Shown here piece by piece: positions 5,141-44,709 of a DNA stretch of 64,000 nucleotides. Location of the stretch: positions 1 to 64,000 of the IMG/VR virus record IMGVR_UViG_3300032304_000900; one strand, written 5' to 3'. The first letter of the stretch is position 1, and each line of letters starts with the position of its first letter. The notes below the pieces were generated by a model that was given only the letters and a program-made list of their open reading frames with translations, ran no database searches and was not told where the DNA came from. Source of the DNA: a virus. The position numbers were made by a program, and so were the translations under genes.

Positions 5141-5693
5141 TGTTCTCGTCTTCCATAAAACTCTCAAGATTATTTTTTGTTTTTTTCTTTGCTGGTTTCT
5201 TTTTCGGCATATTAAATTCAGAATCATTGTTGCTGCGCAAATATTCCATCATTTGATTTGTCCACTCACCATCTTCATCTTGTTCTTGCAAATCAAACAA
5301 CTCAAATGGCATCTCAAGAATCATTTTGTTTTTAACATATGTTTGTTTCTTTTCTTTTTGGATTTTTCGTATGAAAGCATAATAAATGATTTGTGTAAAA
5401 TATGCAAAAGGATTACTAGATTTCGTTGGATCAAAATTGTCAATGTACTGAAGACAGTTCTCAACTCCGTCAAGAATCATGTCTTCTCTGTAAGTATAAT
5501 TGATAAAATTGGATTTATAAGACAGATGTGTTGCTATCTTCATCAAGCATTCCCCAATATATTCAGGAACACGAGGTTTATCATCACCAGATGCTTCAGC
5601 ATCCAGTACACTCTGTTTATATTTTTTGATTGCTGCTAAGAAATCAGCATTATTGACATAATGTGCTTTTTCTTTTGTTGTTGTATCGTTCAT
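5130..5693 (-). CDS. 55: Late-transcription sigma factor gp55
   Basis: gp55 is the T4-type sigma factor that replaces host sigma on RNA polymerase and recognises the extended -10 box TATAAATA of late promoters. The 187-residue protein matches T4 gp55 in size (185). It carries the family-typical central segment: YREDMILDGVENCLQYIDNF, followed by NPFAYFTQIIYYAFIRKIQKEKK, which resembles sigma region 2 (core binding and -10 recognition). The C-terminus is lysine-rich. It lies directly behind an exact sigma-70 promoter and upstream of gp47/gp46. Its targets are visible in this window as late boxes. Confidence 0.93.
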   Translation of the reverse strand: MNDTTTKEKAHYVNNADFLAAIKKYKQSVLDAEASGDDKPRVPEYIGECLMKIATHLSYKSNFINYTYREDMILDGVENCLQYIDNFDPTKSSNPFAYFTQIIYYAFIRKIQKEKKQTYVKNKMILEMPFELFDLQEQDEDGEWTNQMMEYLRSNNDSEFNMPKKKPAKKKTKNNLESFMEDENNGN

Positions 5694-5723
5694 TGTCGCC
5701 CCACTTAATATAATACTAAAAAC

Positions 5724-5752
5724 ATTATACTACATAATCAATAATTTGTCAA
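5724..5752 (-). promoter_or_regulatory. Exact-consensus sigma-70 promoter upstream of gene 55
   Basis: On the minus strand, TTGACA (5747-5752), 17 bases and TATAAT (5724-5729) give a perfect match in both hexamers and spacing. It fills the 65-base gap between the 150-aa gene and gene 55, with transcription starting about 25 bases before the gene 55 start codon. It would make the late sigma factor and the gp47/gp46 genes expressible by host polymerase. Confidence 0.85.
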
Positions 5753-5758
5753 ATATAT

Positions 5759-6211
5759 TTAATGTAATGTCTTGTTTGAATCAACCTTTACTTGACCTTC
5801 TGTTTCTTCTTGTATTTCTTCCATCTTTTTCATCAATTGTTCCATCTTTTCATCTACAATGTCACTTATTTCTAAGAAATTTTCTGGTTTAACTAATTCT
5901 TCAAGATCATAACTTTTTAATGCTTCTGGTTCCTCTTGTTTATTCAGCATGTCAACATAGTAAGGAACAGCATCCTTGTTCATTGGTTTGATGAATGTTA
6001 GATCTTTCTTCAAAAAGGTAAATTGTTTGTCATCAGTAAATGGACAAAATGAGGAAGTCGAGTGAACTTCTCTCATAACATTTTTTGCTACTTGAAATGT
6101 TTGTTTAGATATGAGTAATGGAAACAAAACTGTGATGTCTTTTTCAGTTTCTTGTTTAACAATGCATAAGAAACTTTCTCCTGTTGTCATACGCATAACT
6201 CTAAAATCCAT
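5759..6211 (-). CDS. Hypothetical protein with Sm-like N-terminal region, 150 aa
   Basis: This 150-residue protein has a beta-rich N-terminal region (MDFRVMRMTTGESFLCIV...) that resembles the LSM/Sm-like small proteins often found next to uvsW in T4-like phages. An acidic helical tail with coiled-coil character (EKMEQLMKKMEEIQEETEG) follows. The start ATG overlaps the uvsW stop by one base (TAATG), so it is translationally coupled to the helicase. The gene ends seven bases before the -35 box of the gene 55 promoter. RNA binding would fit the fold but is an inference; conserved family, unknown role. Confidence 0.6.
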   Translation of the reverse strand: MDFRVMRMTTGESFLCIVKQETEKDITVLFPLLISKQTFQVAKNVMREVHSTSSFCPFTDDKQFTFLKKDLTFIKPMNKDAVPYYVDMLNKQEEPEALKSYDLEELVKPENFLEISDIVDEKMEQLMKKMEEIQEETEGQVKVDSNKTLH

Positions 6212-7701
6212 TATAGTTCTACTTCGTTTATTTTAACTGAAAACTGTTCTTCAGCATACAATTTTACTCTCTCCATAAAATGATTTAGTGTATGATTTTT
6301 CCAAGATTTGTAAGATAAATCATCAGCAATATCATAGAGATTGCAAGTATCTTTACCTTCTTTCAATCGCAGTCCACGACCAATTGATTGAAGATTTCTA
6401 ATTCTTGATTTGCTTGGTGATGCAAAAACGATGTTCTCAATTGAGGGTATATTGATGCCTGTTGAGAATGTTCCGTATGATGCGAGAATCAACATGTCAT
6501 CACGTTGTTCTGCCATATGTCTGATGCGTTCTCTTTCAGCAACATCGATATCTCCGTGAACAATGGCCACGTTCTTTTCTGTGATATTACCAAACAAATC
6601 ATGTAATACTTTTCCATGTTTCTCAACATATTGAAACAGGATTAGAGTATTTCCAGTTAAAGTTTGGGCAAGATTCTTAATGAAGCGATTACGCTTCTGG
6701 TAAGAGACTAGAAAATCCATCTCTTCTTGGTATAAATTATTCTTGCGCTTCTTTCTGGTTTCCTCATCGTATTTCAGTAGAACACATTTTATATTTAGTT
6801 TTGCTACTCTTTGTGTTTCCATCAACTTTTTGGTGGTAGTAACTTTATAGACTGGACCAAATAATCCCTCAAGAACAAGACGATGCACTTGTTTGTTATC
6901 AAGAGTGCCTGTTGTTCCTATACGATATGGAATGCCAGTCATTTTTTCCATAACTGTTGCTAGAGATTTTGCTTTGAATTGATGTGCCTCATCACCAAAC
7001 ACAACCTGAAATTTGTCAAACCATCCCTTTGGTTGTTTGTAAATAGATTGCCATGTTGTAATCAACACATCTGAGGAAATATCTTTAGTGAAACCACTGT
7101 ATAATTTTTGACAGTGTCTGTCAACACGCCAACCATTCACATGCGAATAGTCAACAAAGTCAGTGTACATCTGTTCAACTAAAGATGTTGTTGGTACGAT
7201 AAGAATGCATTTCTTACCTTCAGTAACATAATGACGCATCAGTGTGTATATAATTAGTGACTTACCTGATGCAGTAGGAGAGAGTAGTAGTTGCCTATTA
7301 TTATTTAAACAGTTGCGAATAGCATCTATTTGATAATCTCGAATTTCAATCGGTTCCCCTCTAGCAGTGAGATTGAGAGCATGGGCATATTCTGATACTT
7401 GTTCATATGTATATTCGACAGTAGGCACAGGTCGATAATGTTCTGCTGCCAACTCGTGATATTTGTATCCATTTCTGTCCGCAAACTCTTTAACATAGTA
7501 TTTGAGTCCAGCATACAGTGTTTTTCTTTGTAAATCGTAGAGTCTAATTTTACCATCCCACATCCTCGCTTTATATGCTGGCATGAATTTAGCACCAGGA
7601 ACCTCAAATGTAAAAAAATTACTCAGTTCATGCTCAATGTTTATATCCGAAAACACACGGATATTCACATTATCAAAATTTTCAACTACTATTTTATCCA
7701 T
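6211..7701 (-). CDS. uvsW: DNA/RNA helicase UvsW
   Basis: UvsW is the T4 superfamily 2 helicase that processes R-loops, recombination intermediates and stalled forks, and shuts off origin-dependent replication late in infection. Motif I is SPTASGKS (residues about 141-148), motif II is GDEAHQF, motif III is GTTGT and motif VI is QSIGRGLRL. The N-terminal region before the helicase core matches the UvsW substrate-binding domain in placement. A GTG start 27 bases upstream is possible, but I prefer the ATG at 7701. It has GGA seven bases upstream and overlaps the uvsY stop by one base (TAATG), giving 496 residues. Confidence 0.95.
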   Translation of the reverse strand: MDKIVVENFDNVNIRVFSDINIEHELSNFFTFEVPGAKFMPAYKARMWDGKIRLYDLQRKTLYAGLKYYVKEFADRNGYKYHELAAEHYRPVPTVEYTYEQVSEYAHALNLTARGEPIEIRDYQIDAIRNCLNNNRQLLLSPTASGKSLIIYTLMRHYVTEGKKCILIVPTTSLVEQMYTDFVDYSHVNGWRVDRHCQKLYSGFTKDISSDVLITTWQSIYKQPKGWFDKFQVVFGDEAHQFKAKSLATVMEKMTGIPYRIGTTGTLDNKQVHRLVLEGLFGPVYKVTTTKKLMETQRVAKLNIKCVLLKYDEETRKKRKNNLYQEEMDFLVSYQKRNRFIKNLAQTLTGNTLILFQYVEKHGKVLHDLFGNITEKNVAIVHGDIDVAERERIRHMAEQRDDMLILASYGTFSTGINIPSIENIVFASPSKSRIRNLQSIGRGLRLKEGKDTCNLYDIADDLSYKSWKNHTLNHFMERVKLYAEEQFSVKINEVEL

Positions 7702-8710: not shown

Positions 8711-8925
8711 TATTTCTCTCTTAAATATTTTTCCATGTCAAAAAGTTTTTCCTTTTCAATCATGTCTATAATTCTAGTTGTTAAATTTATTTCTGCCTGT
8801 ATCCAGTTCATTCTTACTTGTAACTCTTTGAGTTGTTCGCAGTAATACTGTAGCTCCTTCTCTTTTCTAGCACGAGATTCGAGAAGTTCTGAGAGGACAA
8901 TAACTTTAACATTCTTATCTTGCAT
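8710..8925 (-). CDS. Small coiled-coil protein, 71 aa
   Basis: This is a 71-residue, strongly helical protein with heptad-like charged and hydrophobic residues (RARKEKELQYYCEQLKELQ and following). Similar small proteins occur between gene 23 and uvsY in aquatic T4-like phages, without a known role. The start ATG at 8925 has no clear ribosome site. A late-type box (AATAAATA at 8931-8938) sits only five bases upstream and the gene 23 terminator lies just before that. This spacing would place the transcript start at or next to the start codon. Confidence 0.65.
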   Translation of the reverse strand: MQDKNVKVIVLSELLESRARKEKELQYYCEQLKELQVRMNWIQAEINLTTRIIDMIEKEKLFDMEKYLREK

Positions 8926-8930
8926 GCATA

Positions 8931-8938
8931 TATTTATT
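8931..8938 (-). promoter_or_regulatory. Possible late -10 box (AATAAATA) directly at the start of the 71-aa gene
   Basis: AATAAATA on the minus strand differs from the T4 late consensus TATAAATA at one position. A strong terminator ends transcription just upstream, so the downstream genes (the 71-aa gene, the tube-fold gene, uvsY, uvsW) need a promoter here or must rely on read-through. The box is only five bases before the ATG, implying a leaderless transcript if used. Confidence 0.35.
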
Positions 8939-8942
8939 CAAC

Positions 8943-8968
8943 AAAAAAGGGGAGCCGAAGCTCCCCTT
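8943..8968 (-). terminator. Rho-independent terminator after gene 23
   Basis: On the minus strand, AAGGGGAGC, a UUCG tetraloop and GCTCCCCTT form a perfect 9-bp stem (8947-8968), closed by C-G around UUCG, the most stable tetraloop type. The U-tract of six (8943-8948) overlaps the stem base. It lies about 30 bases past the gene 23 stop codon. This is the clearest terminator in the window and would protect the abundant capsid mRNA. Confidence 0.95.
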
Positions 8969-9000: not shown

Positions 9001-10356
9001 TTACATAATGTTCTGTACACGAACTCTACGATAGTAGACGTTTTCGTTTGAACCGATTGATGTTGCTAATGTAGTACCACGAGCGAATGGGTTAGCAAGC
9101 ATGCCGTAGCGTGTCTTGAAGCCAATCTTTGGTTGGAATGTATTTGGATCTACAGCACGAACCATTTGTAGAGGAACGTATGGGCAGTAGAAGATACCAG
9201 CGTCAAATGCGCTAGAACCCTTATAACCAACTACATAGAATTGGTCATTAGCACCACCATTCGATGCATATGGATCAATATAGACACGATAGCGACCATT
9301 TAGAACACCAGCGAATGTGTTACCTGCGTCATCAACTGTTAAGTTTGTTGAAAGAGCAGGAGCGTAGTCAAGAACACCAGCCATTGCTAATGCAGATGCA
9401 ACATCTGAAGAGCAAAGGATGAAGTTACCTTTACCACGACGTGTTTCTTGTGCAATTACGTTCGCATCACGTTCGATTTGGAACAATAGACCTTTGAATT
9501 TCTCAACTGACCAACGTCCGTTAGCGTCTGTATCCAAATCGAATACACCAGCTGTTGTTACTGTACCAGATGCTGCACCAGACTTAGCTGTGTAATAAAT
9601 TGTACGAATAACTTCGCGATTGATTTCAGCAAGAATTTCTGTTGAAAGGATGTTGCTCAACTCGCTCTCAGCATCAAGACCATGAATTGCTTTCATATCT
9701 TGTGCGAGTTCAATTGAGTACTCAGCTTTCAAAGCACGTGACTTAGCAGTTACGCTTGTCTTCTCAATTGAGAAAGCCATTTCATTGAAAGTTGTTGAAC
9801 CAGGACCTGGATCAGATGCTGGAGCTGCACCAGTTGAAGACGAAGTGTGACCACCCTCAGCCTGTTGAGTTGTCATACCACCTGGAGCATTAACTGATGA
9901 GAACCAGTTAGAACCAGAGATTGTTGACTGATTTGTGTTAGAACCAAGGTCACCACCTGCACGCTCTGCGTCAGCTTCGTTATAAAGTGCCTCAGTACCA
10001 CCTTGTGTACCATAACGGCTCTTCATTGCGAATACCAAGCCTGTTGGACCTGTCATTGGCTGAACACCGCAAAGATCATAAGCGATCATTTGTGGAGCAG
10101 CACGACGTACTAAGTTGATCAAAATTGGATCGTACTTAGCGACACCACCTGTGTCTGGGTTTGTTGATGAACCATTGTAGTTCGCATTAGTTGGAACTGC
10201 TTCGAAAAGAGCAGCACGCTCTTCTTGCAATGAACGCTCTTGGTTCTCTAAAAGAACAGCAGTAACTTCTTTACGATACTGGTCTTTGATTTCTGGCAAA
10301 TTCTCGTTCTCGAGAATTGGCGACCATTTTTTAACTAGATCTTCTCTTAACATCAT
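9001..10356 (-). CDS. 23: Major capsid protein gp23
   Basis: This is the T4-type major head protein that forms the hexameric capsid shell. It has 451 residues (T4 521) with the family's N-terminal helical region, then the conserved segment YDPILINLVRRAAPQMIAYD, GVQPMTGPTGLVFAMKSRYG and a conserved C-terminus (FKTRYGMLANPFARG). A likely gp21 protease site is LFE/A after residue 52, the usual small-x-Glu pattern; mature protein would begin AVPTNANY. A strong AGGAGAAA ribosome site precedes tandem ATGs. It is followed by the UUCG terminator and probably co-transcribed with gene 22. Confidence 0.98.
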   Translation of the reverse strand: MMLREDLVKKWSPILENENLPEIKDQYRKEVTAVLLENQERSLQEERAALFEAVPTNANYNGSSTNPDTGGVAKYDPILINLVRRAAPQMIAYDLCGVQPMTGPTGLVFAMKSRYGTQGGTEALYNEADAERAGGDLGSNTNQSTISGSNWFSSVNAPGGMTTQQAEGGHTSSSTGAAPASDPGPGSTTFNEMAFSIEKTSVTAKSRALKAEYSIELAQDMKAIHGLDAESELSNILSTEILAEINREVIRTIYYTAKSGAASGTVTTAGVFDLDTDANGRWSVEKFKGLLFQIERDANVIAQETRRGKGNFILCSSDVASALAMAGVLDYAPALSTNLTVDDAGNTFAGVLNGRYRVYIDPYASNGGANDQFYVVGYKGSSAFDAGIFYCPYVPLQMVRAVDPNTFQPKIGFKTRYGMLANPFARGTTLATSIGSNENVYYRRVRVQNIM

Positions 10357-30522: not shown

Positions 30523-33500
30523 TCAAAATGTTGAGGTTACGATACTTTGCTCATAATCGTCCGCAAAATAGATGATTGGAGTATTAGTTGCGTAGCCATT
30601 TGGTGGATATAATCTTGCTGCACCTGACGTGTTCGCTTCGAATGTATCCGAAACTCTTTTTGTTACACTGAATATCGTTTCATCTGCTGGCAACATCAGT
30701 TCAGTTACATAATCTGGCCAATATTGTGTTAACTCGTTAAAATTCTCGAGTTCCATATAATCGTTCCAGATATGTGCCCTATATGAGCCACCCTGTTTAT
30801 TATATTGTATAGTATCAGAATCTACTGTTCTTACTTTGTCTCTCTTAAATTCTGTATATGCTCCAAATGTCAATAATCTTGGATCAAAACTTAATATTTC
30901 ATATGAATCAATCCAGAAGAAGTCAGATTGATCGCCAAGGATTTTGCTATATCCTTTTTGTGGCAAATCAGTTGCTCTTGACAAATCGCTTGAGTTTTTG
31001 CCTTTAGCAAATATAACAGAATCAGTCGCTCTTGGAACATCGCTTAAACCTTTTGTTGGTCTCTTTACAATTACATCAACTGAAGTTAGATACTCAACTC
31101 TGTAATCTGGATAATTTTGAGCAAGTTCATTAAATGGATGAAATTCATTATAATCATTCCAAACTTGCCATACATTAGAACCAGCAGTTTTTCCGAATTG
31201 TCTGTTGCTATTAAATCCAGCATTTATGATCTCTGCTTTTGCACCTGGAGAGAACTGAATACTTGGTTGAGAAACAGCTGTTGGTGTTTCTGCACAAACT
31301 CTGTTGAAATTTACAGTTTTAGATAACGCATCAGCAGCCACCATAAATTCTGTTCTAAATGGTGTTCTGATTAGTTCATATAATTCCTCATAAACAAACT
31401 CTTCAGTATACTTATTGAATATTGTATAAGGGAATGCATTGTTTGATGGACCATAATAACCATAAGTCAACAATGTCAAATCATAAACAGATCTTGCTGT
31501 TTCTAAGTAATCATTCCATGTGTTTACTGGATCTTGACCACCAACTTTTGTGTAGTTAATTACATCAGCGTCTGGTAATGTAACTCTATCAATTTTGTAA
31601 TCTGGATAATTGCCAAAACGAATATCTTCCTCATAGTTACTTACATATGCGATGTAAAGAGGATTCCATATATTTCTATCAACAGAAACAGTGGTATCAC
31701 CAATATATGGTTTTGTTATAACCCTTGGCATTGTTTCTGTTAAACCAACAAATTCTACTGAAATTTTTCCATAGTCGAGTCTAATAACTTCAACTGGTCT
31801 AATTATTTCTGTTACATAATCCTGAGCAAATTGTAAACGCAAATCTCTATCATAGAATATTTCCTCATTGAAGAAATAGTCCATGATACTTTGTGTTCTA
31901 CCACCCTGTTTTGTAAACAGGTTTGCCTTTTGATCAGTAATTTTACCAATATCAACTGTAGAATCTGTTCCACGATAGTAATATTGTGCTAATTCTAAAG
32001 ATACCTCAAGTTCTGGATAATCCTGCCAAGTGCTATAATATGAAGAAACATTACCTGCAGCCAAACCAACATACCTAGCAAGAGATTCAGATGCTCTTGA
32101 AATGTCATTAGTACCATAAAGTAATGTAAATAGTGGTCCACCATTTTTAGACAACAGCATCGAATCAGTTATGGTAACTGTGTCATTGAATGTTTTAGAT
32201 GCTGTCCATATTTTTGTAAATAGATCAGCAGTTTTAATAGTCTCTGGTCTTGTTGTTGGTTGATACTGAACCAACTCTTGGTCATATTCTGTTGCCAATG
32301 TCAATTCAGCAAAGTCGCTCCAATATGGCGACACTCTAATAATTGGTGATTTCGTAAATGTTTTTGGAGCAGAATCTGTTGTTCTAACAAAATCTGTTTT
32401 GCTACCTGGAACAAATGTTAATGTTAACTCCTCATCCATAATTGGTTCGCCTGTTGGACTATGTTCTCCAATAGGATTAATACCAAGCCAATCACGGAAA
32501 TATGATGCTAAACGACCATCACCACCATTAATAGAAACTTCTTTACCAATTCCTTCTGCTAGGTTGATTTGTTCTGATTTATTTGGTCTAATAGATCTTC
32601 TAGCATCATCAGCAACTCTAGTTATTTCTGTGTATTCTCTAGATCCCCACGTAAATGTAGAGAATTGATCTGTTGCTGTTGCGAATGTTAAATCATTATA
32701 ATCTCTCCAAACATACGAATCGAAATATAGTGTTTTTGTAAATCCTTTTGCTGCCAAATCGGGAACAAGAATAGCATCATATTTTGTTCCATAATCAATA
32801 CCCATTATACCAGAGAAAATAAATTCTTGTAAATCTGTCCAAGTATTTACTTGAATTTCTCCAGCAGTTTTGTTTACAACTTTTGTTAATGTTTCATTAC
32901 CAGCAGCTGCAGTATCAGCACTTGGTTTACGAAGTGTAAGAGTTCTTACTTCAAGTAAGTTAATAATTTCAGAATTAGTTTTGGTTAAACCAAGTGTGGC
33001 TTTTGAACAAACATCAAGAATAGTAACACTTGTTGGTTTGGATTTAATAAATGTTTGTGTTAATTCTTGATCCAAATATGATGGACCACCAAAAGACAAT
33101 TCATTATAGTCGTTCCAGAAACCTTGTGGATATGGGTCAACAGCAATTTTAGTAAATGTTCTTGCTGTTGAATCTGTATAAGAAACTTTATCTCCATCAG
33201 ATCTATCACGAAGTGTAAATAATAATTCTTGTCCTAAAACATTATGACGACTTAATGATGTTGGACCAATATTAGAAACAAATGGACCTGTCTCGGTAAA
33301 TGTAATAGTGAAGTTGTTAATGCTTTCACTGTCGTCAATAATTGGATAAGTGAAATCCAAGAAATCACTAAGAACTGAAGATCTTACTGTAGAAAAGTTA
33401 ACTGTTAGACCAGAGATGGTTAAAATACCACCAGTTCCATCTACTGTCGCAACGGTAAACGAACATGATTTACCATTTCCCAAATCAACAGTAAAGAAAT

Positions 33501-35847
33501 TTCCTGCAGTATACCCTGTTCCAGGAGTTGTTATTGTTGCAGTATAAGAACTATCTACACGTGATACAGAAATTACTGCTCCATATCCACGAATGTTTGT
33601 ATATGTTTCTTGTGTATAGAATAGATCAGCAAAATCATTAAATACTCGACTTTTTACATCACCAACTGTTGTAGATAAAAATCTTCCAGTAGTATCAGAT
33701 CCTGCTGCAGTGTCTGAGTAACTTCTAACATAAGAAACAGTTTTTCTAAATGTTTCTGTAAAAGTTACAAGATCGTGATCTAATGAATACGCTTGTCTCC
33801 AAAACTCTTGAGCAATTTCTTGATCAATATCTGCGCCAAGCGACAGTTCATTAAAATCAGTCCAAGTAGCATCATAGTAATATGTAAATGGACCAATTCG
33901 CTTAGAATAATTCTTAGCAAAAGTTTCGTTTAGTTTTAGGTATTCAACTCTGTAATCTGGATAGTATTGACAGAGTTCATATGTTCCCTGAAGTTCATTA
34001 AAGTCTGACCATACATTAAATACATTTTCTCCAGCAATTTTATTATATGTAATAACATCTGTATCTTGTGCCTTTGCTGTGTCAGCGTAAGTTTTAACAT
34101 ATGATACAATTTTTCTAACACTATCAGTGATTCGTTGCGTATCTGCTGGTGGGAAAGCTGCAGGTTCAATAATAGAACTGAAGTACATGCTGTCACTAAC
34201 ACGAATAACATCAGCAAGAACTTTACTAAACACTCTTGCTGTAATTTGGTCAGCTGATCTAGAAACATCAGCGAGTGATCTTGGATACAAAGCAACACGA
34301 GAAAATGTTTCGGATGCGCCAGCAGTGTCGCTAAACGATCTTACATAAGAAACTATTTTGCTAAAATTATCTACTGTTGATGATGAATCGGAATGTGAAC
34401 GAACGAAAGAAACAACTTTGGAGAAATTGTCTGTTAGATAAGAGGTATCTGACTTGCCTCTGATGTAAGAAACAACTTTGGAGAAATTATCACTAACATT
34501 TTGTAATTCAGAGAAAGCACGATTGAATTGTTTTATCGTTGCAATAATGTCAGCAGTATCAACTGTGTTTGCGCCAGAGTTAAAGCTGCGAGAGAACTGA
34601 ACAATTTTATTAAAACTATCTCCAGCTGCAATTAAATTTTGTTTTGGTTTAAAATATTGTATTGTTGAATCATCTGCTGTTGCTTCAGTATCACTAAATG
34701 GTGCTTTGCTTAATGATTTTGCTGCTAATTCTGGTATTGTTAGTGTGTCACTATATGCTCTTACGAAATTAACAATTCTAGAAAATACATCAACTGCAGT
34801 GTCCGTGTCATTAAAAACACGATTAAACGAAACAACTCTTGTTAATTGTTGATTAACTGTAAGTCTGTCTGTTCTTGGTTTGTTTACAACTCTAGAAAGA
34901 TTTTCTTGTGGTCTTGCAACATCTTGGAAAAAACGAACAAACGAAACAATTCTTGCAAGCGAATCTGAGATAGCAGAAAGATCAACTTCTGAATCACTTA
35001 CGACAAGAACACCTGACTCACCAAGAAACTGATCAGCGACCAATAAGAAATCAGAAACTCTTTTAGTAAATACTAATGTTCTCGAATCATTGCCTCTAAG
35101 TATTTCGCTAACATTTTTACCAAAGTTAATTATATCAGAATCACTTAATCCAAATGTATCAGATCTTGGTTTACTAATCAGTTTGGGGAAAGTATCAGCA
35201 AGAGAAACAACATCAGTTTTTGGTTTAGTTATTGCAAATGTTTTCGCATCAGCAGTTTGAATGATGTCTTGTTTACTGCGTAAGAATGTAACAACTTTAC
35301 TGAAGTTATCAGATGATTGTAAAACCTCAGTAAAGTTTTTACCTACAGTGAATACACGTGCATCAGTATAAGACGCAGTATCTGCGAATGGTGCTTTGGA
35401 TATTGTCTTGGCTGGTTGGTCTTGAGATATTGTTGTATCGTTATACGATCTATAGAAAGAAACAACTCGAGTAAGAACATCATTAAGCGTGACGATTTGA
35501 GCATGGAATTTACCAAGATTGACAATAGAAACATCATCGGTAATTCCAACAGCATCAATTGCTGCTTTTGTTAATTGTAAAGTTTTGGCATCGATAACAA
35601 CACCAGACTCAACAAGAGTAAGAAGTCTACTAAGAACATCGTAAGCAACTCGAACAGCTGCAGCACCTGTACGTGCGCTTGCCATTGCTGCTCGAACAGC
35701 TGCAGCTGGCATCGCTACTGCTTTTTGTACTGTTTGTCTTAGATTTTCTGTCGAAATGCTTTTTGTTTCTGAACGAGATGATGCCGTAACCTTGTTCGGT
35801 GTACTGCTTATCTTGTTGTTTTTGTCAGAACCTTTAGCATTTGACAT
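30523..35847 (-). CDS. Long repeat-built tail fibre-like protein, 1774 aa
   Basis: The 1774-residue protein is built almost entirely of two repeat types. Residues about 90-610 hold more than 15 degenerate units of 20-30 residues with the core D-x-F-S-K-V-V-[ST]-[YF]-x-R-S-x-[SN]-D-T. From about residue 610 to the end, these alternate with an aromatic/acidic unit, W-x-D-[YF]-x-E-[LF], often followed by Q-[YF] and PDY (for example NVWSDFNEL, TWNDYLE, VWNDYNEF, IWNDYMEL). No enzyme domain is visible. Such periodicity suggests an elongated trimeric fibre shaft. It lies between fibre-associated genes and the DUF4815 baseplate gene. The start has no obvious ribosome site and no late box in its 56-base leader. 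Confidence 0.65.
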   Translation of the reverse strand: MSNAKGSDKNNKISSTPNKVTASSRSETKSISTENLRQTVQKAVAMPAAAVRAAMASARTGAAAVRVAYDVLSRLLTLVESGVVIDAKTLQLTKAAIDAVGITDDVSIVNLGKFHAQIVTLNDVLTRVVSFYRSYNDTTISQDQPAKTISKAPFADTASYTDARVFTVGKNFTEVLQSSDNFSKVVTFLRSKQDIIQTADAKTFAITKPKTDVVSLADTFPKLISKPRSDTFGLSDSDIINFGKNVSEILRGNDSRTLVFTKRVSDFLLVADQFLGESGVLVVSDSEVDLSAISDSLARIVSFVRFFQDVARPQENLSRVVNKPRTDRLTVNQQLTRVVSFNRVFNDTDTAVDVFSRIVNFVRAYSDTLTIPELAAKSLSKAPFSDTEATADDSTIQYFKPKQNLIAAGDSFNKIVQFSRSFNSGANTVDTADIIATIKQFNRAFSELQNVSDNFSKVVSYIRGKSDTSYLTDNFSKVVSFVRSHSDSSSTVDNFSKIVSYVRSFSDTAGASETFSRVALYPRSLADVSRSADQITARVFSKVLADVIRVSDSMYFSSIIEPAAFPPADTQRITDSVRKIVSYVKTYADTAKAQDTDVITYNKIAGENVFNVWSDFNELQGTYELCQYYPDYRVEYLKLNETFAKNYSKRIGPFTYYYDATWTDFNELSLGADIDQEIAQEFWRQAYSLDHDLVTFTETFRKTVSYVRSYSDTAAGSDTTGRFLSTTVGDVKSRVFNDFADLFYTQETYTNIRGYGAVISVSRVDSSYTATITTPGTGYTAGNFFTVDLGNGKSCSFTVATVDGTGGILTISGLTVNFSTVRSSVLSDFLDFTYPIIDDSESINNFTITFTETGPFVSNIGPTSLSRHNVLGQELLFTLRDRSDGDKVSYTDSTARTFTKIAVDPYPQGFWNDYNELSFGGPSYLDQELTQTFIKSKPTSVTILDVCSKATLGLTKTNSEIINLLEVRTLTLRKPSADTAAAGNETLTKVVNKTAGEIQVNTWTDLQEFIFSGIMGIDYGTKYDAILVPDLAAKGFTKTLYFDSYVWRDYNDLTFATATDQFSTFTWGSREYTEITRVADDARRSIRPNKSEQINLAEGIGKEVSINGGDGRLASYFRDWLGINPIGEHSPTGEPIMDEELTLTFVPGSKTDFVRTTDSAPKTFTKSPIIRVSPYWSDFAELTLATEYDQELVQYQPTTRPETIKTADLFTKIWTASKTFNDTVTITDSMLLSKNGGPLFTLLYGTNDISRASESLARYVGLAAGNVSSYYSTWQDYPELEVSLELAQYYYRGTDSTVDIGKITDQKANLFTKQGGRTQSIMDYFFNEEIFYDRDLRLQFAQDYVTEIIRPVEVIRLDYGKISVEFVGLTETMPRVITKPYIGDTTVSVDRNIWNPLYIAYVSNYEEDIRFGNYPDYKIDRVTLPDADVINYTKVGGQDPVNTWNDYLETARSVYDLTLLTYGYYGPSNNAFPYTIFNKYTEEFVYEELYELIRTPFRTEFMVAADALSKTVNFNRVCAETPTAVSQPSIQFSPGAKAEIINAGFNSNRQFGKTAGSNVWQVWNDYNEFHPFNELAQNYPDYRVEYLTSVDVIVKRPTKGLSDVPRATDSVIFAKGKNSSDLSRATDLPQKGYSKILGDQSDFFWIDSYEILSFDPRLLTFGAYTEFKRDKVRTVDSDTIQYNKQGGSYRAHIWNDYMELENFNELTQYWPDYVTELMLPADETIFSVTKRVSDTFEANTSGAARLYPPNGYATNTPIIYFADDYEQSIVTSTF

Positions 35848-35853
35848 TTTTAT

Positions 35854-35882
35854 TTGACATTAATTTGAGCGAACTGTATAAT
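35854..35882 (+). promoter_or_regulatory. Exact-consensus sigma-70 promoter pointing antisense into structural genes
   Basis: On the plus strand, TTGACA (35854-35859), exactly 17 bases and TATAAT (35877-35882) form a perfect host-type promoter. It lies in the 56-base gap before the fibre gene, opposite to all neighbouring genes. Transcription would start near 35889 and run antisense through the 112-aa gene and onward. No meaningful plus-strand reading frame follows. ACTGT (35873-35877) and ACAGT (35884-35888) form a short inverted repeat around the -10 region. Confidence 0.65.
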
Positions 35883-35903
35883 AACAGTGTTGGGTTTCTA
35901 TGT

Positions 35904-36242
35904 TTAAACCTGCGTAATCTGTGGTGACACAATAATTATTCCTTCAACTGGTCTTGTTCTATAAGTAGAAGTATCAACCATTTCTATATCATAAAGATAT
36001 CTTCCTGGTTTTAATGCGCCTGTTTGAGTAGCAGTTAATGAAAGAATAACTTGTCCTGTTGCGGGAGAGGGAACTGTGCATGTAAAAGTAGTCGCAGTTG
36101 ATGACGCATAAGATTTTCTCATTTGCGAAGTAAATGAGTAACCAGTTAAATTTAATGGCGTAATTCCATTATCAGCATATAATGTAATGCCAGTGGAAAA
36201 ATCTGCTCCTTGATCGATATAAAGTGCTTGTACTAATGCCAT
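35904..36242 (-). CDS. Ig-fold baseplate/fibre accessory protein, 112 aa
   Basis: This small virion protein type is common in T4-like phages of aquatic bacteria. It starts MALVQALYIDQGADFSTGIT, has LNLTGYSFTSQMRKSYASST and ALKPGRYLYDIEM, and ends with a strand V-E-G-I-I-I-V-S-P. The pattern of alternating hydrophobic residues suits a single Ig-like beta-sandwich, similar to the N-terminal domain of baseplate upper proteins. Its start overlaps the stop of the 75-aa gene. The region is the target of the antisense promoter at 35854-35882. Confidence 0.7.
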   Translation of the reverse strand: MALVQALYIDQGADFSTGITLYADNGITPLNLTGYSFTSQMRKSYASSTATTFTCTVPSPATGQVILSLTATQTGALKPGRYLYDIEMVDTSTYRTRPVEGIIIVSPQITQV

Positions 36243-36469
36243 TAAAGTTTCTCTACTAAAAATTTTAAAATTTGTTTTATTTCAGCAATATCTTCTTTCA
36301 TATTATCAACTTCTTGCCTAATATCATTCATTTGCTCACGTTTGGCTTTATTAACAGCGCATTGAGCCAAATATGCTTCATATCCTGCTTTATCATTATT
36401 TAGAACAACACCTGTATTTGCATCTTTATACAGGTGTCTTTCTCCTTCAACTTTAACCAGATTTTCCAT
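36242..36469 (-). CDS. Small protein with C-terminal coiled coil, 75 aa
   Basis: The 75-residue protein starts MENLVKVEGERHLYKDANTG, a motif shared by small proteins next to baseplate genes in many aquatic T4-like phages. A helical C-terminus with heptad pattern (MNDIRQEVDNMKEDIAEIKQ) follows. It is likely to be an oligomeric virion or assembly protein. Size and coiled coil are reminiscent of fibre-assembly chaperones such as gp57A, but I see no sequence support for that. It overlaps its neighbours by one base on each side. Confidence 0.6.
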   Translation of the reverse strand: MENLVKVEGERHLYKDANTGVVLNNDKAGYEAYLAQCAVNKAKREQMNDIRQEVDNMKEDIAEIKQILKFLVEKL

Positions 36470-39400
36470 TATGCAGTAGCGATAATTCTTAGATCTTTAA
36501 TCCTTGGCACAAATGCTGGGTTTCTAGATCTCATAACAATCTTAATAATTGCTGTATTAAATGAAGATAAATTATCAACAGTAAATGAATGGTCAATAAA
36601 TTCTTCAATATTATCTGTAGTAGTTAACTGTCCTCTACTTGTCAATGTTGGATTGTTTCCACCATAATTAGATTGATCACCACTTACAACAATATCAGGA
36701 AGAATTCTAAAGAATAAGTCATCTTCAATTGATGCTTGATCTTTTTGGTTTACATCAGTAAACGAATGCGATTCTTGAACAGCTGTTGCTGTAATATTTA
36801 TCGGAGTAAATCCAGGAGTTGCTCTTCCTATCTCAATAGCATTTTGATATGTGGTTGCTAATTTAATTGAGGTCGTAGTAACTACAACTGCATAATAAAC
36901 AGTCCCTGTTCTTAAATTAGTAATAGTATTAGAACCAGCATTATAAAGTACAGCAGAGCCAGTATTCAAATTATGTGCAATTGGAAAATATATAATTTCA
37001 TTTGTACTGTCAACACCATATGGATTTGTAACCGCATTGTATTCATTTGAACTAAAAGACAATGCTGCTGATGATGTAGCATTTCCAGCATTTGATGTTT
37101 TAGCGTAAACTTCAACTTCTGCATTTGGTGGTGAGGTAAATGTCAACAAATTAGTTGGCGTTCTTGTACTTAATGTTGGTTCTACAAGACCAGTTACTGC
37201 TTGATTTAATTTTATTACAGGATTGAAGAATGTAATAATATTATTGTTTTGGTTAAAGTAGAATGAGCTACTGAAACCAATAGATGACCATTCATCAGCT
37301 GCGCTCAATTTTTCAAGAACAATAGACTTAGCATCAAGATTTATTCTCAACACACGACGAATAGTTGCAGGAGACCAACCGAATGTGCCATCATTCGAGT
37401 TGTAGAACTTAATATAGCAGTACATACCCAACTTAATGTCAGAAAGATTATCAACAAAAACTGTCATATTGTTAGTTGTTGGGTCAATACCACCAGTAGT
37501 TGTGTTTGTTAATGTTATTGGATTATCCGCTGATGCTTGAACGAAAGAACCTGTAGCATACGAACCAACTTTCTTAGTAAAGTATGTATTTTTTGGAGCA
37601 GATGTTACATATGTTCCAGATGGTATTGGCGATCCTGCTCCACTATATGTAACATAATCACCAACATCAATTTGTTTAGTTTTATTTGACTGTGTAATAT
37701 CAAACGCAGTAAAGAAATAAACAGAACCAGATGTTGATGATGGGATTGTTGCCTTTAATGATTTGTCTATTGTTACAATTAAACCAGCGATACCATTAAC
37801 ACGTGTTCCTTCTTGAATTCCTGGTCCATAAACATACATACCATCGACGATATTGGTTACTGCTACAAATTCGATAGCAGTTGTACCGATTGGGTATGAT
37901 GTGGAAATTTTACTTCTTTGAACTATAATCGCTGGATGCTCAGAAGTTCTTGAGCCAGACTGGAATTTAATTGGTAATGTTACAGTTGGTGTGCTCTTAT
38001 CAACACGGCAGTTAGAAGGAATAGAAGCAGCAAATTGAACCTTCAGTAACTTAGATGTATTTTTAAATTGAAGTTTGCGTGTAATATAACCCATCTGTAC
38101 GCCACCTTCTTTATTGTCGTATTCAGAGTTATAAATTTCTGCACCATCAAAACCACCAGTAGCTGAAAAATAGTTACTGTTGATGCTCTTAGTTGTTAGT
38201 GGATCATCAATACGGTTTTGTGTAACGATTGCCATTGCGCGATCTAAGTCGATTACTGGAGATAAAAACTTAGTTGACGATTGCAATTGAACACGCATTT
38301 CAAACGAAGAAGCACGATCTAATAAATCTGCTTCATTTTGTTTATTTAAAATAACACGTTGCGAATTAAAATAATTATTATCATTTAAAACAATATTTGT
38401 CCAATTATCATCTTTCTGATATGGTGTTTCAGATCCAGTTGGGCTGCGACCAGATGTTGTTTTAACTTGCGCATTTACAGCAGTTGATTGGAAATTTAAT
38501 ACTTCAAGCACTGGATGCAATGTAGTAAATTGCGCATTTCTTGTAGCAAAAATTTGATCGCCACCAAATTGACCTGATGATGTAGCAAGTTTTGCAACAG
38601 GTCCATCGTAAATGCGAATACTGTATAAGTCATGACTATACACTTTGTAAACTTCATGTTTAACTAAGTTACCAGTTGACACAAATGTAGATGTTCTAAT
38701 ATCAAATTGATTTCTAGTAAATGTTTCACTATTAAAATCAGTATTATTAAATCCAAATTGATCTGAACCAGTTACATTTCTATAAGAAACAAATGAACCA
38801 GTAGACATACCATGATTTGGGTGACGCACAATAATTTCGCTTGTTCCTAATTTTGCACGGAATGGGTTTAATGCGAGTGATGTAAATCTTGTAGCTCTTC
38901 CAGCATTAGATGCTGGTAATACATCACCAGCTGTGAATGTTAAATAATTACCAGTTGTGGTAGTTCCTCCAAGATCTGTAGAACCTGATGTTGTATTAAA
39001 TACAGCACGGAAAATGTTACACTTTAAATCTTGTGTTGGTGATTCTGTCCAAGTTGATGCATTTTGAGATTTAAATAAAGAACCAAGAGAAGGACTTTTT
39101 AAAACTCTTCCTAATCTTGCTGGCGAAACATCAGTTCTATCTAATGTCGCACACCACAATCTGTGTTGTGTAGACGCAGCTATTACAATAAGAGCGTATA
39201 ATGTATCATTCTTAACATGAACAGGTGCAGGGAATCTAACTACTGTTCCAACACTTGCATCTCTAGACGTCAATATATCTGCTGGATAAACAACTTTTTG
39301 TCCAAATGGAAGAACAGTAGTTGTTGGAAATCCAGATTGTGTTGTGCGAATTTCAACTACGACTGGGGTAGTGGTATCTTTTGATTCAAAGAACAACTCT

Positions 39401-42400
39401 ACTTCTGTTAAGAAACACCCCTCAGGATTTGAACTGTCTTGCGCAGTAACCATAAATGTTTGCGCCAATGGATCATTACCACCACCTCCACCATCTCCAG
39501 CTGGTGCTGGGGGAGGATCAGGTTCGAAAGTGAAAGTTGTTGTTGACGATAGTTGTTGTATAAATGATCTATTTCTTTGTACGGGACCAGAACCAATAGA
39601 TGCATTACGAACGCCAATTATACCACCTTGAGTAGCATCTATAATACCAACAGCAGCATATACGCCTTCTGCATATGTCGTTCTTGCTGTTGGAGAATTG
39701 GTTGTTGAGTCTGATAACATAAACACACGACGACCAGTCAAAAATCTTGGTGACGCACGATTGTTAATAACCTGACCAGATGTTAAGTGCCAAACACCAG
39801 CACAGCGACCAGTTCCTGTTGTTACTAAAACACCAGGAGCAGCTGCTTCAATATGATTTGAACCACGCAATTGCAATGTTAATACACCACCATTTAATTT
39901 AGTGCTTCTGATTGTACCAAGAATTGTTTCACCAGCTCTGAATGATCCACGAACATTAATTACATGTAGTGTATCTAAAACACCATCTGGTTGACCAGTT
40001 GATGCGTTTGTGGATTGTTCATGTAAAATAACAATAGCAGTAGCACCTGATGTTTGGCCACGAATAATTTCTCCTTTAGTAAACGCAGTAACTTCTGAGT
40101 TTGGTGCAATAAGCGCACGAGCAGTATCGTTTAATGATTGAGAAATTGTTAAAGATGTTGGTTGTGTTTGAGTGCCACTAAAAATGGTAGTAAAGATACT
40201 TGTAAAAGATGCAAGTTCGTTTGCTAACGAACCCATAAATGTTCTTTCATAATTTGATGCACTACCTGCTTCAATAGCATCAGTATTATATGTTAAAAAC
40301 ACTTGTCTTTCTGTGTTTGTTGCACCAAATTGATATGGCACCTCTGCATAGTTAAATCTTCTGGTAGCAAGAAATAGTCTTGTTGCTTGTGTGCAGTAAT
40401 CTGTTACATTAGTCTCATCACAAAAACCATAAACACGTGTTCCTGCTCTCATCGCAGAACCAACAAATACAACAGGACGTGAGCGAATGTAAGAAATAGA
40501 TTGTCTTGCTGTCAATCTTCCTTTAACTTCAGTTAGACCAACACTTTCATTGAGTGAAGTTTGTGTTCCTCTTCCAGTCTCATTAACTTGTTGTGTAACA
40601 ACTGAAGTTGTTGATGTCCATGTTCCTCCAGCATCTCTCCAACTAGCACTAGAAACAGTTGTTATTGGACGACCGAGTGATGATACTTGCCAATTATTCC
40701 AAATTGTTCCGAAATCAATACCAAGCGCATCAGCCTGCGCAGCGACGCTATCATATGTTCCACCTTCATTGATTACAAGTTCTTGTGGGATGTTTGTCTC
40801 AACCCAAGAATCTGTAGATGGATATAATGCTACAACACCAGTTCCTGCAGGTTGAGTGAGAGAAGTGATCGTGGTAAATTCTGTAGCATATGGTTGCTCC
40901 ATAATTATTAAATCATTGTTTTCACGAATTAACGCTTCTTTTCTAGATCTTTCTGCAGCAGTAGCATTATTACCTTTATTAGTAATAGATTGAATTTCGT
41001 TTTTATTTTTGTAATAAAACTCCACACCAGTAAAATATGGTAGAGTTACAATGTTTCCCTCATGTATACGATACCCAGCAGCGTTACGTTCTTGAGCTGT
41101 TCTTGCTACTTCATATAAATCAACACCAGTTGTATTAAACGCTGGTCGTAAAACACGTTCAATAATATCAATGGAGCACTCATAATCTGGATCTAATACG
41201 TTACCTACTCTATGTCCTGTGAAATTATCTACAATAAATCCATTTTTAAATCTATCTAAACCATCTTGATCTTTAATAGAAAATTGTGCTGTTTCTTTCT
41301 CGAGAGCATTTAATGTTACTGTTTGTTCAAGATTGCTAATTCGTTTTTCTAACTTAGCAATATCTTTCATTGTAAATCTGCGATTATCAATTGGCTTAAT
41401 AATAATATTACTAGAGTTTGCTCTGTAAGTATATGGTTTGTATTCAATGTCGAACAGATGCATTGTATCATCTGGAGTTTGTGGTAACTGTGGATTATCA
41501 GAAGAAACACCTTGAATTAAATTAAAACCACCAGTTTTACTTAAAACAATTTTATCTTTTCTTGGTAGATAATACGCGAAGTCACATTGAAGACCATAAA
41601 GACGTTGTGGTAAAGATGTTAATGACGCTGTTCCACCATCGAATGTTCCACCATCATTAACACGTGGACGGAAATCCAGAACATCACGCAAACCTGTAGT
41701 TCTTCCTGTAATTTTACTAAAGAAATTTGGAATTTCTTCGTATAACAAATCAGGATATGAGTCAGCAGAAAAATAATCGCCAGAAGAGTGTTCAAAATAC
41801 TCAAATGTTACACGAATTGGACCTGTTGGGAAAGGTACTGATTTACCTTTAATCAAACGACCTAAGTCATAGTGCGTATCACGCTGACCATTATCGAACT
41901 CATAATTACTTGTAATGTCAATACCAGAACCAGTAAGCAATCCAGAGATATCATTACCAAAAATTACATTTGGAAACATTTCTACTCTTAATACACGATA
42001 GATGTCAGCTTTATTAATGTTAATAATATCAAGTTCTACTGTTGTTTGTAGTGTTAAATCTAAAGTAGCAGACACAAGAGATTTAACTTTTTCTTTTGCA
42101 TTAATCAGACGTTTTAAAACTGGAGCATATATTGTATATGAATCGTTTTGTAAATTAGCAATTGCGCCAGCACGACTTGAAGATGCAACTAATCTAATAA
42201 TTGCTGTATTTGATGTTGTTAATGTTACATCAAATACAGTCATTGCTTCACCAGTTGTATTGTTGATAACAATAAATGCATTTGGTGTTGTAATTTGTAG
42301 TTGATCTGGATCTGGAACTGATAAATTAATACTTACAAATGTTGTTCCAGCATCACCAGAAGCAGTATACTTCTCTAGTGTTGTATATGTTGTATTGTTA

Positions 42401-44673
42401 TCTTGTAAAGTTTCACCACCACGAATTGTGTAAATATCCCTTTTTGGCATTGCAAACAAAGAATCAAAATCTTCTGGAAGTTGATATACGCAATCTGCTC
42501 TGTTTAATGGACCAGACAATGTAAAGTTTGACCAAGTAGTAACTTTAGCAGCACGATCTGAACCTTGTAAATCGCGAACAAAGAAAAATTGTGTTGGGGA
42601 ATTTGGAAACCAAACCATGTCACCAGCTGTTAGGGTTGATCCAGAAATCCATTTAGTTCCAAGACCAGCTAAATCAACATTGTTATTTCCTGTTGTGGCA
42701 ACTGTAGACTGACCAACGATTGTTGAATTATAAGTTGTTGGTAACACTAATGCACGGAAACACTGTGCATCTCCACCAGCTGATGTTGAACCAACACTTA
42801 ATGGTGATCCGATAACACGAACTTTACGGAAATCTTCTCCTGGATTCATCTGAACATCCATTAGAGAAATTTTAGCAGTAGCACGTCCATTTAAAGTTTG
42901 TCCACCTTCCATATAACGAATACGAGCAGTACCAACTCTTGATGTTGTTAAATATGTGCCATAGCTGTTAGCAGCACCACCAGAAGATGCAAAAGAATTT
43001 AATGCAACTGGAAATGTAGTTGTTGTAACATTGGATGCTAATAATTTTGCAACTTGATATTCAGTGATTGAAGTAGCTGATGCTTGTGTATGAACAACTG
43101 CATAAGTTAATTTTGCTACTGCATTGTTTGGTGTGGCAGTACCAGATCCATCTGCTGCAGCAGTCATCGTTCCAAGTGTTTGTGATGTTGTTGGTGGGGT
43201 ATCGACTTTAAATAAATCAACAATTTGATAACCATCAATATCAGGAACACCAAATGGAATAACATCAATTAAATTCCCTAAACCAATTGGAATTCCCGTA
43301 TTTGTTATTCTAGCAAAATCTCTTGCCTTTGGTGCTTCAATATAACGAACACCACTAGTTTCGTATTCAAATCCTTTAACGAATGCTTTACCATCTTTTA
43401 CACCAAATGCGATTTTATCTGTATCACCACCCTCGGAATCGCTGTAAAGTCCATAATCATATTTGGCTTCTGGGGTATATCTCCAGCGAACGCCACCATC
43501 ACTAACTGCTCCTGATGAGTGTGTTGGTGCGCTTGTACCAGAAACACCATTGTCCAAACATACATAATAGTTAATTGCGTTTGTTGTTGGATTTGTATAA
43601 AAAACCACATCACCAACTTGATAATTTGTAATACCTGTCCATGACCCTTGGTCTGAATCTCTATGTTCTTTAACTTCAATTTCAAATGGTCGAACAGTAT
43701 AGTCGCCCGATTCATCATATGTTCTACGAGCAAGTAATGTTTCTAAATATGAAAGATTTGTGCCTTTTGCTGAATATTCTAAAATACCACGACGAAGTGT
43801 CAATAATAAAATAAAATTTTCTGATTCAAACCCGATTTCTTTTTTATTTAATACGAGTTCAACTTTATAACGATGGGCACCTGGAGCTGTATAATTTGGT
43901 GCGCCAGTCGCATTATCTAATAAAGAGCTATCTTCTTCTGGCGTAACAATTGTTTCTACAATATCTAATCCAACCATGCAAGTTGGTTCATTACTGTATT
44001 TCGCCAACGAAATTTTTTGCGCATTAACTTTAACAAATGCCCCATCGACATAAAAAATACCAGTTTCAAGAACAGCAATAGTTGCTTTTTCTTGATAGTC
44101 AGAAGAATTTTGAATACGAACACGATAAGAACCAACAGAAGCAGTTGTTACTTCACCACTAATTGGATTTGTGTATGTTGGATTTGATTCTACTTCCACA
44201 TTTTGGTCGTTGACAGTTTTAACTGGAACAACTGTAAATGTTAAAATTTCATTCTGAGCAAATTCACGTTCGCCATTGAATCCTTCAGAAAGATAATTGA
44301 TGTAAAGTAATGCTGGGTCACCAACTGATGTAGATGGTTCACAAAGAATAATAACAGCACGAACACCTGTTGTTTCTCCGACTACTGTAACTCCATCAAC
44401 TGCTCTAATAAAAGTATCTAAGTTTACACCACTATCGACTTCTAATGGTTCAAGTTTAATAGAAGCACAGCCAGCAAAAGTGGTAGCTCCAGGAATGACT
44501 CTAGACTTATTTTGAAAAATATAGTCGCCGATTCTCTGAACTTGTTTTTGTAAAATTGTTTGGGCTTGTGTTAATTCACGTGCTTGTAGTGAATATCCAG
44601 GACGAAACAAAATACGAAGGAATTTTTTATCCTCAGCATAATCATCGTAGTATGGAGCTACATTAAAATTCAT
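36469..44673 (-). CDS. Giant baseplate/virion structural protein with DUF4815-type N-terminus, 2734 aa
   Basis: At 8.2 kb this is the largest gene in the window. The N-terminus (FNVAPYYDDYAEDKKFLRIL, FRPGYSLQARELTQAQTILQ) is the DUF4815 signature found in large virion proteins of T4-like phages. The C-terminus ends with a pattern usual for baseplate-peripheral proteins (IKIVMRSRNPAFVPRIKDLR). In between are many beta modules, a Pro/Gly-rich linker (PDPPPAPAGDGGGGGNDPLA), and near the end a copy of the module shared with gp8 and gp7. It is adjacent to gp8 and likely part of the outer baseplate or fibre anchoring; no T4 counterpart assigned. A GATAAATA late-like box precedes it. Confidence 0.75.
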   Translation of the reverse strand: MNFNVAPYYDDYAEDKKFLRILFRPGYSLQARELTQAQTILQKQVQRIGDYIFQNKSRVIPGATTFAGCASIKLEPLEVDSGVNLDTFIRAVDGVTVVGETTGVRAVIILCEPSTSVGDPALLYINYLSEGFNGEREFAQNEILTFTVVPVKTVNDQNVEVESNPTYTNPISGEVTTASVGSYRVRIQNSSDYQEKATIAVLETGIFYVDGAFVKVNAQKISLAKYSNEPTCMVGLDIVETIVTPEEDSSLLDNATGAPNYTAPGAHRYKVELVLNKKEIGFESENFILLLTLRRGILEYSAKGTNLSYLETLLARRTYDESGDYTVRPFEIEVKEHRDSDQGSWTGITNYQVGDVVFYTNPTTNAINYYVCLDNGVSGTSAPTHSSGAVSDGGVRWRYTPEAKYDYGLYSDSEGGDTDKIAFGVKDGKAFVKGFEYETSGVRYIEAPKARDFARITNTGIPIGLGNLIDVIPFGVPDIDGYQIVDLFKVDTPPTTSQTLGTMTAAADGSGTATPNNAVAKLTYAVVHTQASATSITEYQVAKLLASNVTTTTFPVALNSFASSGGAANSYGTYLTTSRVGTARIRYMEGGQTLNGRATAKISLMDVQMNPGEDFRKVRVIGSPLSVGSTSAGGDAQCFRALVLPTTYNSTIVGQSTVATTGNNNVDLAGLGTKWISGSTLTAGDMVWFPNSPTQFFFVRDLQGSDRAAKVTTWSNFTLSGPLNRADCVYQLPEDFDSLFAMPKRDIYTIRGGETLQDNNTTYTTLEKYTASGDAGTTFVSINLSVPDPDQLQITTPNAFIVINNTTGEAMTVFDVTLTTSNTAIIRLVASSSRAGAIANLQNDSYTIYAPVLKRLINAKEKVKSLVSATLDLTLQTTVELDIININKADIYRVLRVEMFPNVIFGNDISGLLTGSGIDITSNYEFDNGQRDTHYDLGRLIKGKSVPFPTGPIRVTFEYFEHSSGDYFSADSYPDLLYEEIPNFFSKITGRTTGLRDVLDFRPRVNDGGTFDGGTASLTSLPQRLYGLQCDFAYYLPRKDKIVLSKTGGFNLIQGVSSDNPQLPQTPDDTMHLFDIEYKPYTYRANSSNIIIKPIDNRRFTMKDIAKLEKRISNLEQTVTLNALEKETAQFSIKDQDGLDRFKNGFIVDNFTGHRVGNVLDPDYECSIDIIERVLRPAFNTTGVDLYEVARTAQERNAAGYRIHEGNIVTLPYFTGVEFYYKNKNEIQSITNKGNNATAAERSRKEALIRENNDLIIMEQPYATEFTTITSLTQPAGTGVVALYPSTDSWVETNIPQELVINEGGTYDSVAAQADALGIDFGTIWNNWQVSSLGRPITTVSSASWRDAGGTWTSTTSVVTQQVNETGRGTQTSLNESVGLTEVKGRLTARQSISYIRSRPVVFVGSAMRAGTRVYGFCDETNVTDYCTQATRLFLATRRFNYAEVPYQFGATNTERQVFLTYNTDAIEAGSASNYERTFMGSLANELASFTSIFTTIFSGTQTQPTSLTISQSLNDTARALIAPNSEVTAFTKGEIIRGQTSGATAIVILHEQSTNASTGQPDGVLDTLHVINVRGSFRAGETILGTIRSTKLNGGVLTLQLRGSNHIEAAAPGVLVTTGTGRCAGVWHLTSGQVINNRASPRFLTGRRVFMLSDSTTNSPTARTTYAEGVYAAVGIIDATQGGIIGVRNASIGSGPVQRNRSFIQQLSSTTTFTFEPDPPPAPAGDGGGGGNDPLAQTFMVTAQDSSNPEGCFLTEVELFFESKDTTTPVVVEIRTTQSGFPTTTVLPFGQKVVYPADILTSRDASVGTVVRFPAPVHVKNDTLYALIVIAASTQHRLWCATLDRTDVSPARLGRVLKSPSLGSLFKSQNASTWTESPTQDLKCNIFRAVFNTTSGSTDLGGTTTTGNYLTFTAGDVLPASNAGRATRFTSLALNPFRAKLGTSEIIVRHPNHGMSTGSFVSYRNVTGSDQFGFNNTDFNSETFTRNQFDIRTSTFVSTGNLVKHEVYKVYSHDLYSIRIYDGPVAKLATSSGQFGGDQIFATRNAQFTTLHPVLEVLNFQSTAVNAQVKTTSGRSPTGSETPYQKDDNWTNIVLNDNNYFNSQRVILNKQNEADLLDRASSFEMRVQLQSSTKFLSPVIDLDRAMAIVTQNRIDDPLTTKSINSNYFSATGGFDGAEIYNSEYDNKEGGVQMGYITRKLQFKNTSKLLKVQFAASIPSNCRVDKSTPTVTLPIKFQSGSRTSEHPAIIVQRSKISTSYPIGTTAIEFVAVTNIVDGMYVYGPGIQEGTRVNGIAGLIVTIDKSLKATIPSSTSGSVYFFTAFDITQSNKTKQIDVGDYVTYSGAGSPIPSGTYVTSAPKNTYFTKKVGSYATGSFVQASADNPITLTNTTTGGIDPTTNNMTVFVDNLSDIKLGMYCYIKFYNSNDGTFGWSPATIRRVLRINLDAKSIVLEKLSAADEWSSIGFSSSFYFNQNNNIITFFNPVIKLNQAVTGLVEPTLSTRTPTNLLTFTSPPNAEVEVYAKTSNAGNATSSAALSFSSNEYNAVTNPYGVDSTNEIIYFPIAHNLNTGSAVLYNAGSNTITNLRTGTVYYAVVVTTTSIKLATTYQNAIEIGRATPGFTPINITATAVQESHSFTDVNQKDQASIEDDLFFRILPDIVVSGDQSNYGGNNPTLTSRGQLTTTDNIEEFIDHSFTVDNLSSFNTAIIKIVMRSRNPAFVPRIKDLRIIATA

Positions 44674-44701: not shown

Positions 44702-44709
44702 TATTTATC
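44702..44709 (-). promoter_or_regulatory. Possible late promoter box GATAAATA upstream of the DUF4815 gene
   Basis: GATAAATA on the minus strand differs at one position from the T4 late box. It lies about 29 bases before the ATG at 44673 and is followed by a CGGAGAAA ribosome site. The box overlaps the first bases past the gp8 coding end, the usual place for late boxes in this genome. Confidence 0.45.

Follow-up and report, generated by a model that had tools for sequence, protein, structure and literature searches.

Reports of antisense transcription across late genes concern few virulent phages and are mostly RNA-seq output without sequence rules. Functionally, the closest known case is that of the virulent Pseudomonas phage PAK_P3, a phage not described there as T4-like, in which RNA-seq revealed 20 antisense RNAs (15 of them in the structural region) that were stronger early than late and for which the authors proposed early shutdown of late genes (PMC4933390). 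The closest case in T4-like phages is CfrI of cyanophage S-PM2, an experimentally demonstrated antisense RNA of ~225 nt located at psbA and a homing endonuclease gene; in the text consulted no link to late genes or to the start-point box described below was found (reviewed in PMC2984593). Near-consensus host-type hexamers also occur in the early promoters of T4 and in the sigma70-like early promoters of cyanomyoviruses, with additional conserved positions beyond the hexamers in those of T4 (PMC2988021, PMC2984593).

The locus analysed here, for which the evidence comes from sequence only, has in common with PAK_P3 the antisense orientation inside the structural region, but differs from it in having a conserved promoter class and positions that are conserved across lineages. 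Compared to the early promoters of T4 and the cyanomyoviruses, the start-point box and the antisense members in late regions are particular to the class described here. T4-type late promoters (NATAAATA), which are used with gp55, are likewise found in this late region and close to some antisense copies, but have other hexamers and lie on the other strand. PeSL is a mobile early-promoter stem-loop cassette of T4-type phages in which the stem-loop adjoins the early promoter; a terminator-like hairpin was absent near 35854, unlike in PeSL. Among the papers searched, none described an antisense promoter before gp55 or the box AACAGTGTTGGGTTT.

The window, i.e. the whole stretch of 64,000 nucleotides that was analysed, belongs to a virus record of 77,913 bases from a T4-like phage. 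It encodes gp23 (9001-10356, PF07068), tail tube, tail sheath and gp55 (5130-5693), and the nearest cultured gp23 proteins were those of Methylophilales phages (Melnitz, 64%) and of cyanophages (62%). The original prediction had placed a host-type promoter on the plus strand in a 56-base gap, aimed antisense into the genes for the 112-aa, 75-aa and DUF4815 proteins, and its sequence, position and direction were all confirmed: TTGACA (35854-35859), a 17-nt spacer and TATAAT (35877-35882) form a 12/12 match to the sigma70-type consensus, standing alone in the gap 35848-35903 between the minus-strand late genes for the 1774-aa and 112-aa proteins (Table 1). The window contains three exact 12/12 sites with N17 spacing, at 655-627 (-), 5752-5724 (-) and 35854-35882 (+), where a first-order model leads one to expect 0.024 on the plus strand and ~0.05 on both strands, in line with the earlier claim that a chance origin is unlikely. 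The site at 655-627 is followed by the usual leader and an ATG, and the site at 5752-5724 drives gp55, as had been proposed. Matches with at most two mismatches were no more common than in shuffled sequence (26 versus 22.3), so only exact sites are informative. In three complete relatives we found 22, 26 and 22 exact sites against an expectation of ~0.11, 0.04 and 0.09 (an enrichment of at least 200-fold), the majority oriented along the gene direction; with counts so far above chance, exact sites in this clade can be taken as real promoters with high probability.

Table 1. Features in and around the gap that holds the antisense promoter (positions in the window)
Feature	Coordinates	Strand	Remarks
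1774-aa protein	30523..35847	-	gene 3' of the gap on the late strand; probably tail fibre, by position
Direct repeat ATGTCAAAT...ATGTCAAAT	35839..35860	-	sequence
sigma70-type promoter TTGACA-N17-TATAAT	35854..35882	+	12/12, spacing 17; conserved in five protein-found lineages
Start-point box AACAGTGTTGGGTTTCTA	35883..35900	+	predicted transcription start near 35889; 11/14 columns invariant
112-aa gene, L-shaped tail fibre assembly family	35904..36242	-	phrog_1084, phrog_3304; first gene entered antisense
75-aa virion structural protein	36242..36469	-	phrog_473; second gene entered antisense
2734-aa DUF4815 protein	36469..44673	-	PF16075; third gene entered antisense
T4-type late promoter GATAAATA	44702..44709	-	the late unit 2734-75-112-1774 aa probably begins here

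Relatives were gathered by the 112-aa protein and not by the motif. The same gap was present in eight loci (L001-L008), which together with the window represent five distinct lineages. The promoter was found at spacing 17 in all gap-bearing loci, and the -10 hexamer differed in only one of them (TAAAAT in L007). Across the five lineages the invariant columns amounted to 6/6 in the -35 hexamer, 4/6 at the start of the spacer, 0/8 in the spacer core, 5/6 in the -10 hexamer and 11/14 in the start region (-6 to +8). The 112-aa proteins of these relatives were 72-95% identical, their codons for identical residues only about 45-70%, and the last 14 codons of the gene (0.33-0.46 identical) were no better conserved than the rest. 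The original prediction had named loss of the hexamers in close relatives as the outcome that would count against it; -35 and -10 were kept, while the spacer core and the synonymous sites drifted. The operator that it had suspected in ACTGT/ACAGT fared less well, as the repeat is there in the window but its left arm reads ACTGT, CTTGT, CTTGT, ACTGT and CCTGT in the five lineages. More distant relatives of the 112-aa protein (those inspected from L009 onward) had another gene downstream and a small gap or none, and such a promoter was absent. Taken together, the comparison supports the promoter at 35854-35882 as real, conserved and, judged by its sequence, of the host type (sigma70).

The promoter part of the original prediction thus stood, but the element is longer than had been noted: the start-point box, the copies in related genomes and the recurring antisense arrangement had been overlooked. 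The box AACAGTGTTGGGTTT follows the -10 hexamer and extends across the start point. A search of viral contigs for -35, -10 and part of the box returned 20 stretches, four of which were dispersed in one relative of 173,880 bases. Complete scans yielded four copies of promoter plus box in G001, five in G002, four in G003 and one or two in G004, and the record of the window itself (G000) has two, i.e. the target site and a weaker copy at 77143-77182, beyond the window. The matches to the box with the fewest mismatches all lay directly 3' of a promoter, and the remaining exact promoters mostly followed a second pattern, lying just 5' of early genes and lacking the box. A looser-motif wide scan gave at least 119 stretches, many of them by chance, and served as a lead only. 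Some copies of promoter plus box stand before early genes, and box promoters were also found directly 5' of sense genes that have a ribosome-binding site and an ATG (L075, L083 and L086); because copies of the box occur directly before sense genes, the element is a promoter and not a peculiarity of this gap. Between the copies the sequence was not conserved beyond ~20 nt downstream. By sequence, promoter and box AACAGTGTTGGGTTT define a distinct promoter class of this T4-like clade. In all four genomes a MazG-like gene was preceded by a box promoter (G000 77143-77182, G001 6770-6809, G002 126809-126848 and G003 near 115681), then a short leader with a hairpin, and a second promoter.

On the late strand, matches to the T4-type late promoter precede several minus-strand late genes, GATAAATA at 44709 being located before the DUF4815 gene, and the window gap 35848-35903 contains no such promoter (with an TATAAATA-like -10). 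In the simplest reading, the genes for the 2734-, 75-, 112- and 1774-aa proteins form one late unit with the antisense promoter inside, and we counted the placement of the late promoter in favour of the antisense reading. Homologues of the 112-aa gene carry the name L-shaped tail fibre assembly in several cyanophage records; a Pfam match was not found for the 1774-aa protein. Four of the related loci (L002-L005) have a perfect T4-type late promoter in the gap, overlapping the end of the 112-aa gene, in that lineage only. The original prediction also stated that there is no plus-strand gene for the promoter, and we indeed found no conserved ORF after the predicted start. A short ORF from the ATG at 35900 was rejected (it has five codons only, and the ATG is missing in L008). 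A strong plus-strand terminator was not found downstream of the promoter.

Similar antisense copies occur at other boundaries. In gaps between co-directional genes their start lies only tens of nucleotides from the upstream gene's stop codon, for instance in the gap that separates gp23 from the tail tube gene (G003, L219 and G002, the latter with a small gene inserted), between a gene for a protein of 106-117 aa and a primase-like gene (G001, G002 and L067; the gp61-like primase label is based on a zinc-finger-like N-terminus) and before gp55 (L068, and also G004, but with degenerate hexamers). The automatic call of orientation flagged extra 'antisense' sites near small genes, most of which on inspection precede small sense genes. 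Manual reading left four exact sites that are truly antisense (G000 35889, G001 53635, G002 894 and G002 98644), all with the box and three of them orthologous. In the corresponding gap of the window between gp23 and the tail tube gene (8906-8950), there is a weak promoter-like site on the plus strand, which overlaps with a match to the late promoter (AATAAATA) and lies next to a strong hairpin (GGGGAGCCGAAGCTCCCC); G002, G003 and L219 carry a full box promoter there. The idea that the hairpin at the gp23 site always yields a short RNA was dropped, as only on the sense strand is the hairpin followed by a U-run, which makes a gp23 terminator more likely.

The looser scan first showed the same arrangement before gp55 in marine T4-like phages. 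To avoid motif bias, a gp55 alignment was used as query and the 180 bases upstream of gp55 were examined in 85 marine-type T4-like loci (L267-L346 and the five cultured cyanophage loci L347-L351). A promoter matching at least 10/12 positions was present on the antisense strand in 83 of the 85 loci and on the sense strand in 81, compared to 4 in shuffled sequence, and nearly all of the antisense promoters read TTGACA-N17-TANANT. Cultured examples include P-HM2 (near 120709, GU075905.1) and Syn9 (near 123698, NC_008296.2). The gp55 gene in these loci is accordingly preceded by a divergent pair of promoters, one antisense and one sense. In the gp55 gap of the window the sense promoter (5752-5724) is present and the antisense one absent; before gp55 the antisense site was likewise missing from G001 and G002, and in G003 it was unconvincing.

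The first 16 bases after the antisense -10 in the 85 gp55 loci contain two arms, one on either side of TGT, which in many cases are complementary though their letters vary (AACAG/CTGTT, AACCT/AGGTT, ATGAG/CTCAT). The mean covariation score of this dyad was 3.78, against 3.06 (sd 0.09) in column shuffles that ignore relatedness, and the cases mostly share one ancestor-like state. A hairpin formed by the dyad would begin one base past the -10, at odds with the expected RNA start.

As to the RNA itself, the fold of the leader was nothing unusual (z-scores of -0.74 to 0.96 in five lineages), and the loci scanned gave no Rfam family except for tRNAs in L212, a related phage contig with a dense array of 25 tRNA genes (3098-6681). 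A trans-acting RNA with a conserved body was rejected, since the synonymous sites under the proposed RNA are unconstrained. The unconstrained synonymous sites, the lack of a consistent leader fold and the lack of an Rfam family together favour action in cis.

Several other explanations could account for the site. That it is a chance match is hardly conceivable: the window is AT-rich and its imperfect matches are about as frequent as in shuffles, but the exact matches and their repetition in related genomes speak against chance, and the conservation in relatives anchored on a protein refutes it. Conservation might instead serve the late strand, i.e. the 5' untranslated or start region of the 1774-aa gene, with the promoter match as a by-product. 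The late-strand reading of the -35 hexamer is in fact a second copy of the start of that gene (ATGTCAAAT), out of frame with the gene, and TATAAATA is present in the gap of L002-L005. Nevertheless, the same -35, -10 and box are found at sites that have no such gene start, the upstream TGTCAA is retained in L002-L005, although the true start there is now ATGCCATCT, and also in L006, in which the upstream ATG has changed to TTG, and the late-promoter match varies across the lineages, which makes this explanation quite improbable.

We consider it unlikely that the promoter, though real, makes a distinct trans-acting regulatory RNA or a short leader RNA, its antisense position being incidental. 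Such a role would be in line with the start-point box being common to sense and antisense copies and with the arrangement at the MazG-like gene, where box promoter, short hairpin-bearing leader and second promoter occur together, but the sequence downstream is not conserved after ~20 nt between the copies, nor are the synonymous sites, and neither the leader fold nor the Rfam scan points to such an RNA. It is similarly doubtful that the promoter fires without regulatory consequence, for example as a strong start retained for the binding of a phage factor, or the titration of host polymerase, by the box. A promoter may be conserved although its transcript does little, exact sites are numerous (22-26 per genome) and the best matches to the box are always coupled to a promoter; against this, five lineages have retained the promoter at one position despite turnover of the spacer core, and the antisense arrangement is met again at boundaries unrelated to this one. 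As some members of the class are not antisense, the box need not exist for the sake of antisense action.

The reading that we favour, and hold to be fairly probable on the sequence patterns above, is that of an active sigma70 promoter of a distinct class, the antisense RNA of which would start at ~35889 and most likely act in cis on the late unit. From these patterns we infer that it fires, when it does so, how long the RNA is and how it affects the late genes. The host-type promoter at 35854-35882 would fire, and the RNA would cross the 112-aa and 75-aa genes and enter the DUF4815 gene. In cis, early polymerases or the antisense RNA itself would then oppose premature or read-through transcription of the late unit, through polymerases that run against each other or through base pairing of the RNA along the late mRNA, and the effect would stop once gp55-dependent transcription replaces that by sigma70. 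As host-type promoters should act before the gp55 switch, the natural role would be to hold down early leakage into the late genes. By analogy with the precedent in PAK_P3, an antisense RNA that delays late proteins is plausible.

A broader possibility, which we put forward tentatively, is that antisense promoters of the host type, which have a symmetric start-point element and lie at co-directional gene boundaries, form a conserved class throughout a wide clade of T4-like phages and could constitute a shared layer of early-to-late timing; the boundaries concerned would be those of the fibre operon, gp23, the primase and, above all, the one just upstream of the gene for the late sigma factor gp55. 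The recurrence of this backward signal, including that before gp55, suggests such a putative shared layer of timing control. The recognisable, conserved promoter element predicts antisense starts in uncultured phages as well as in cultured cyanophages and, if true at gp55, this would bear directly on the timing of the late switch in T4-like phages that lack MotA/AsiA.
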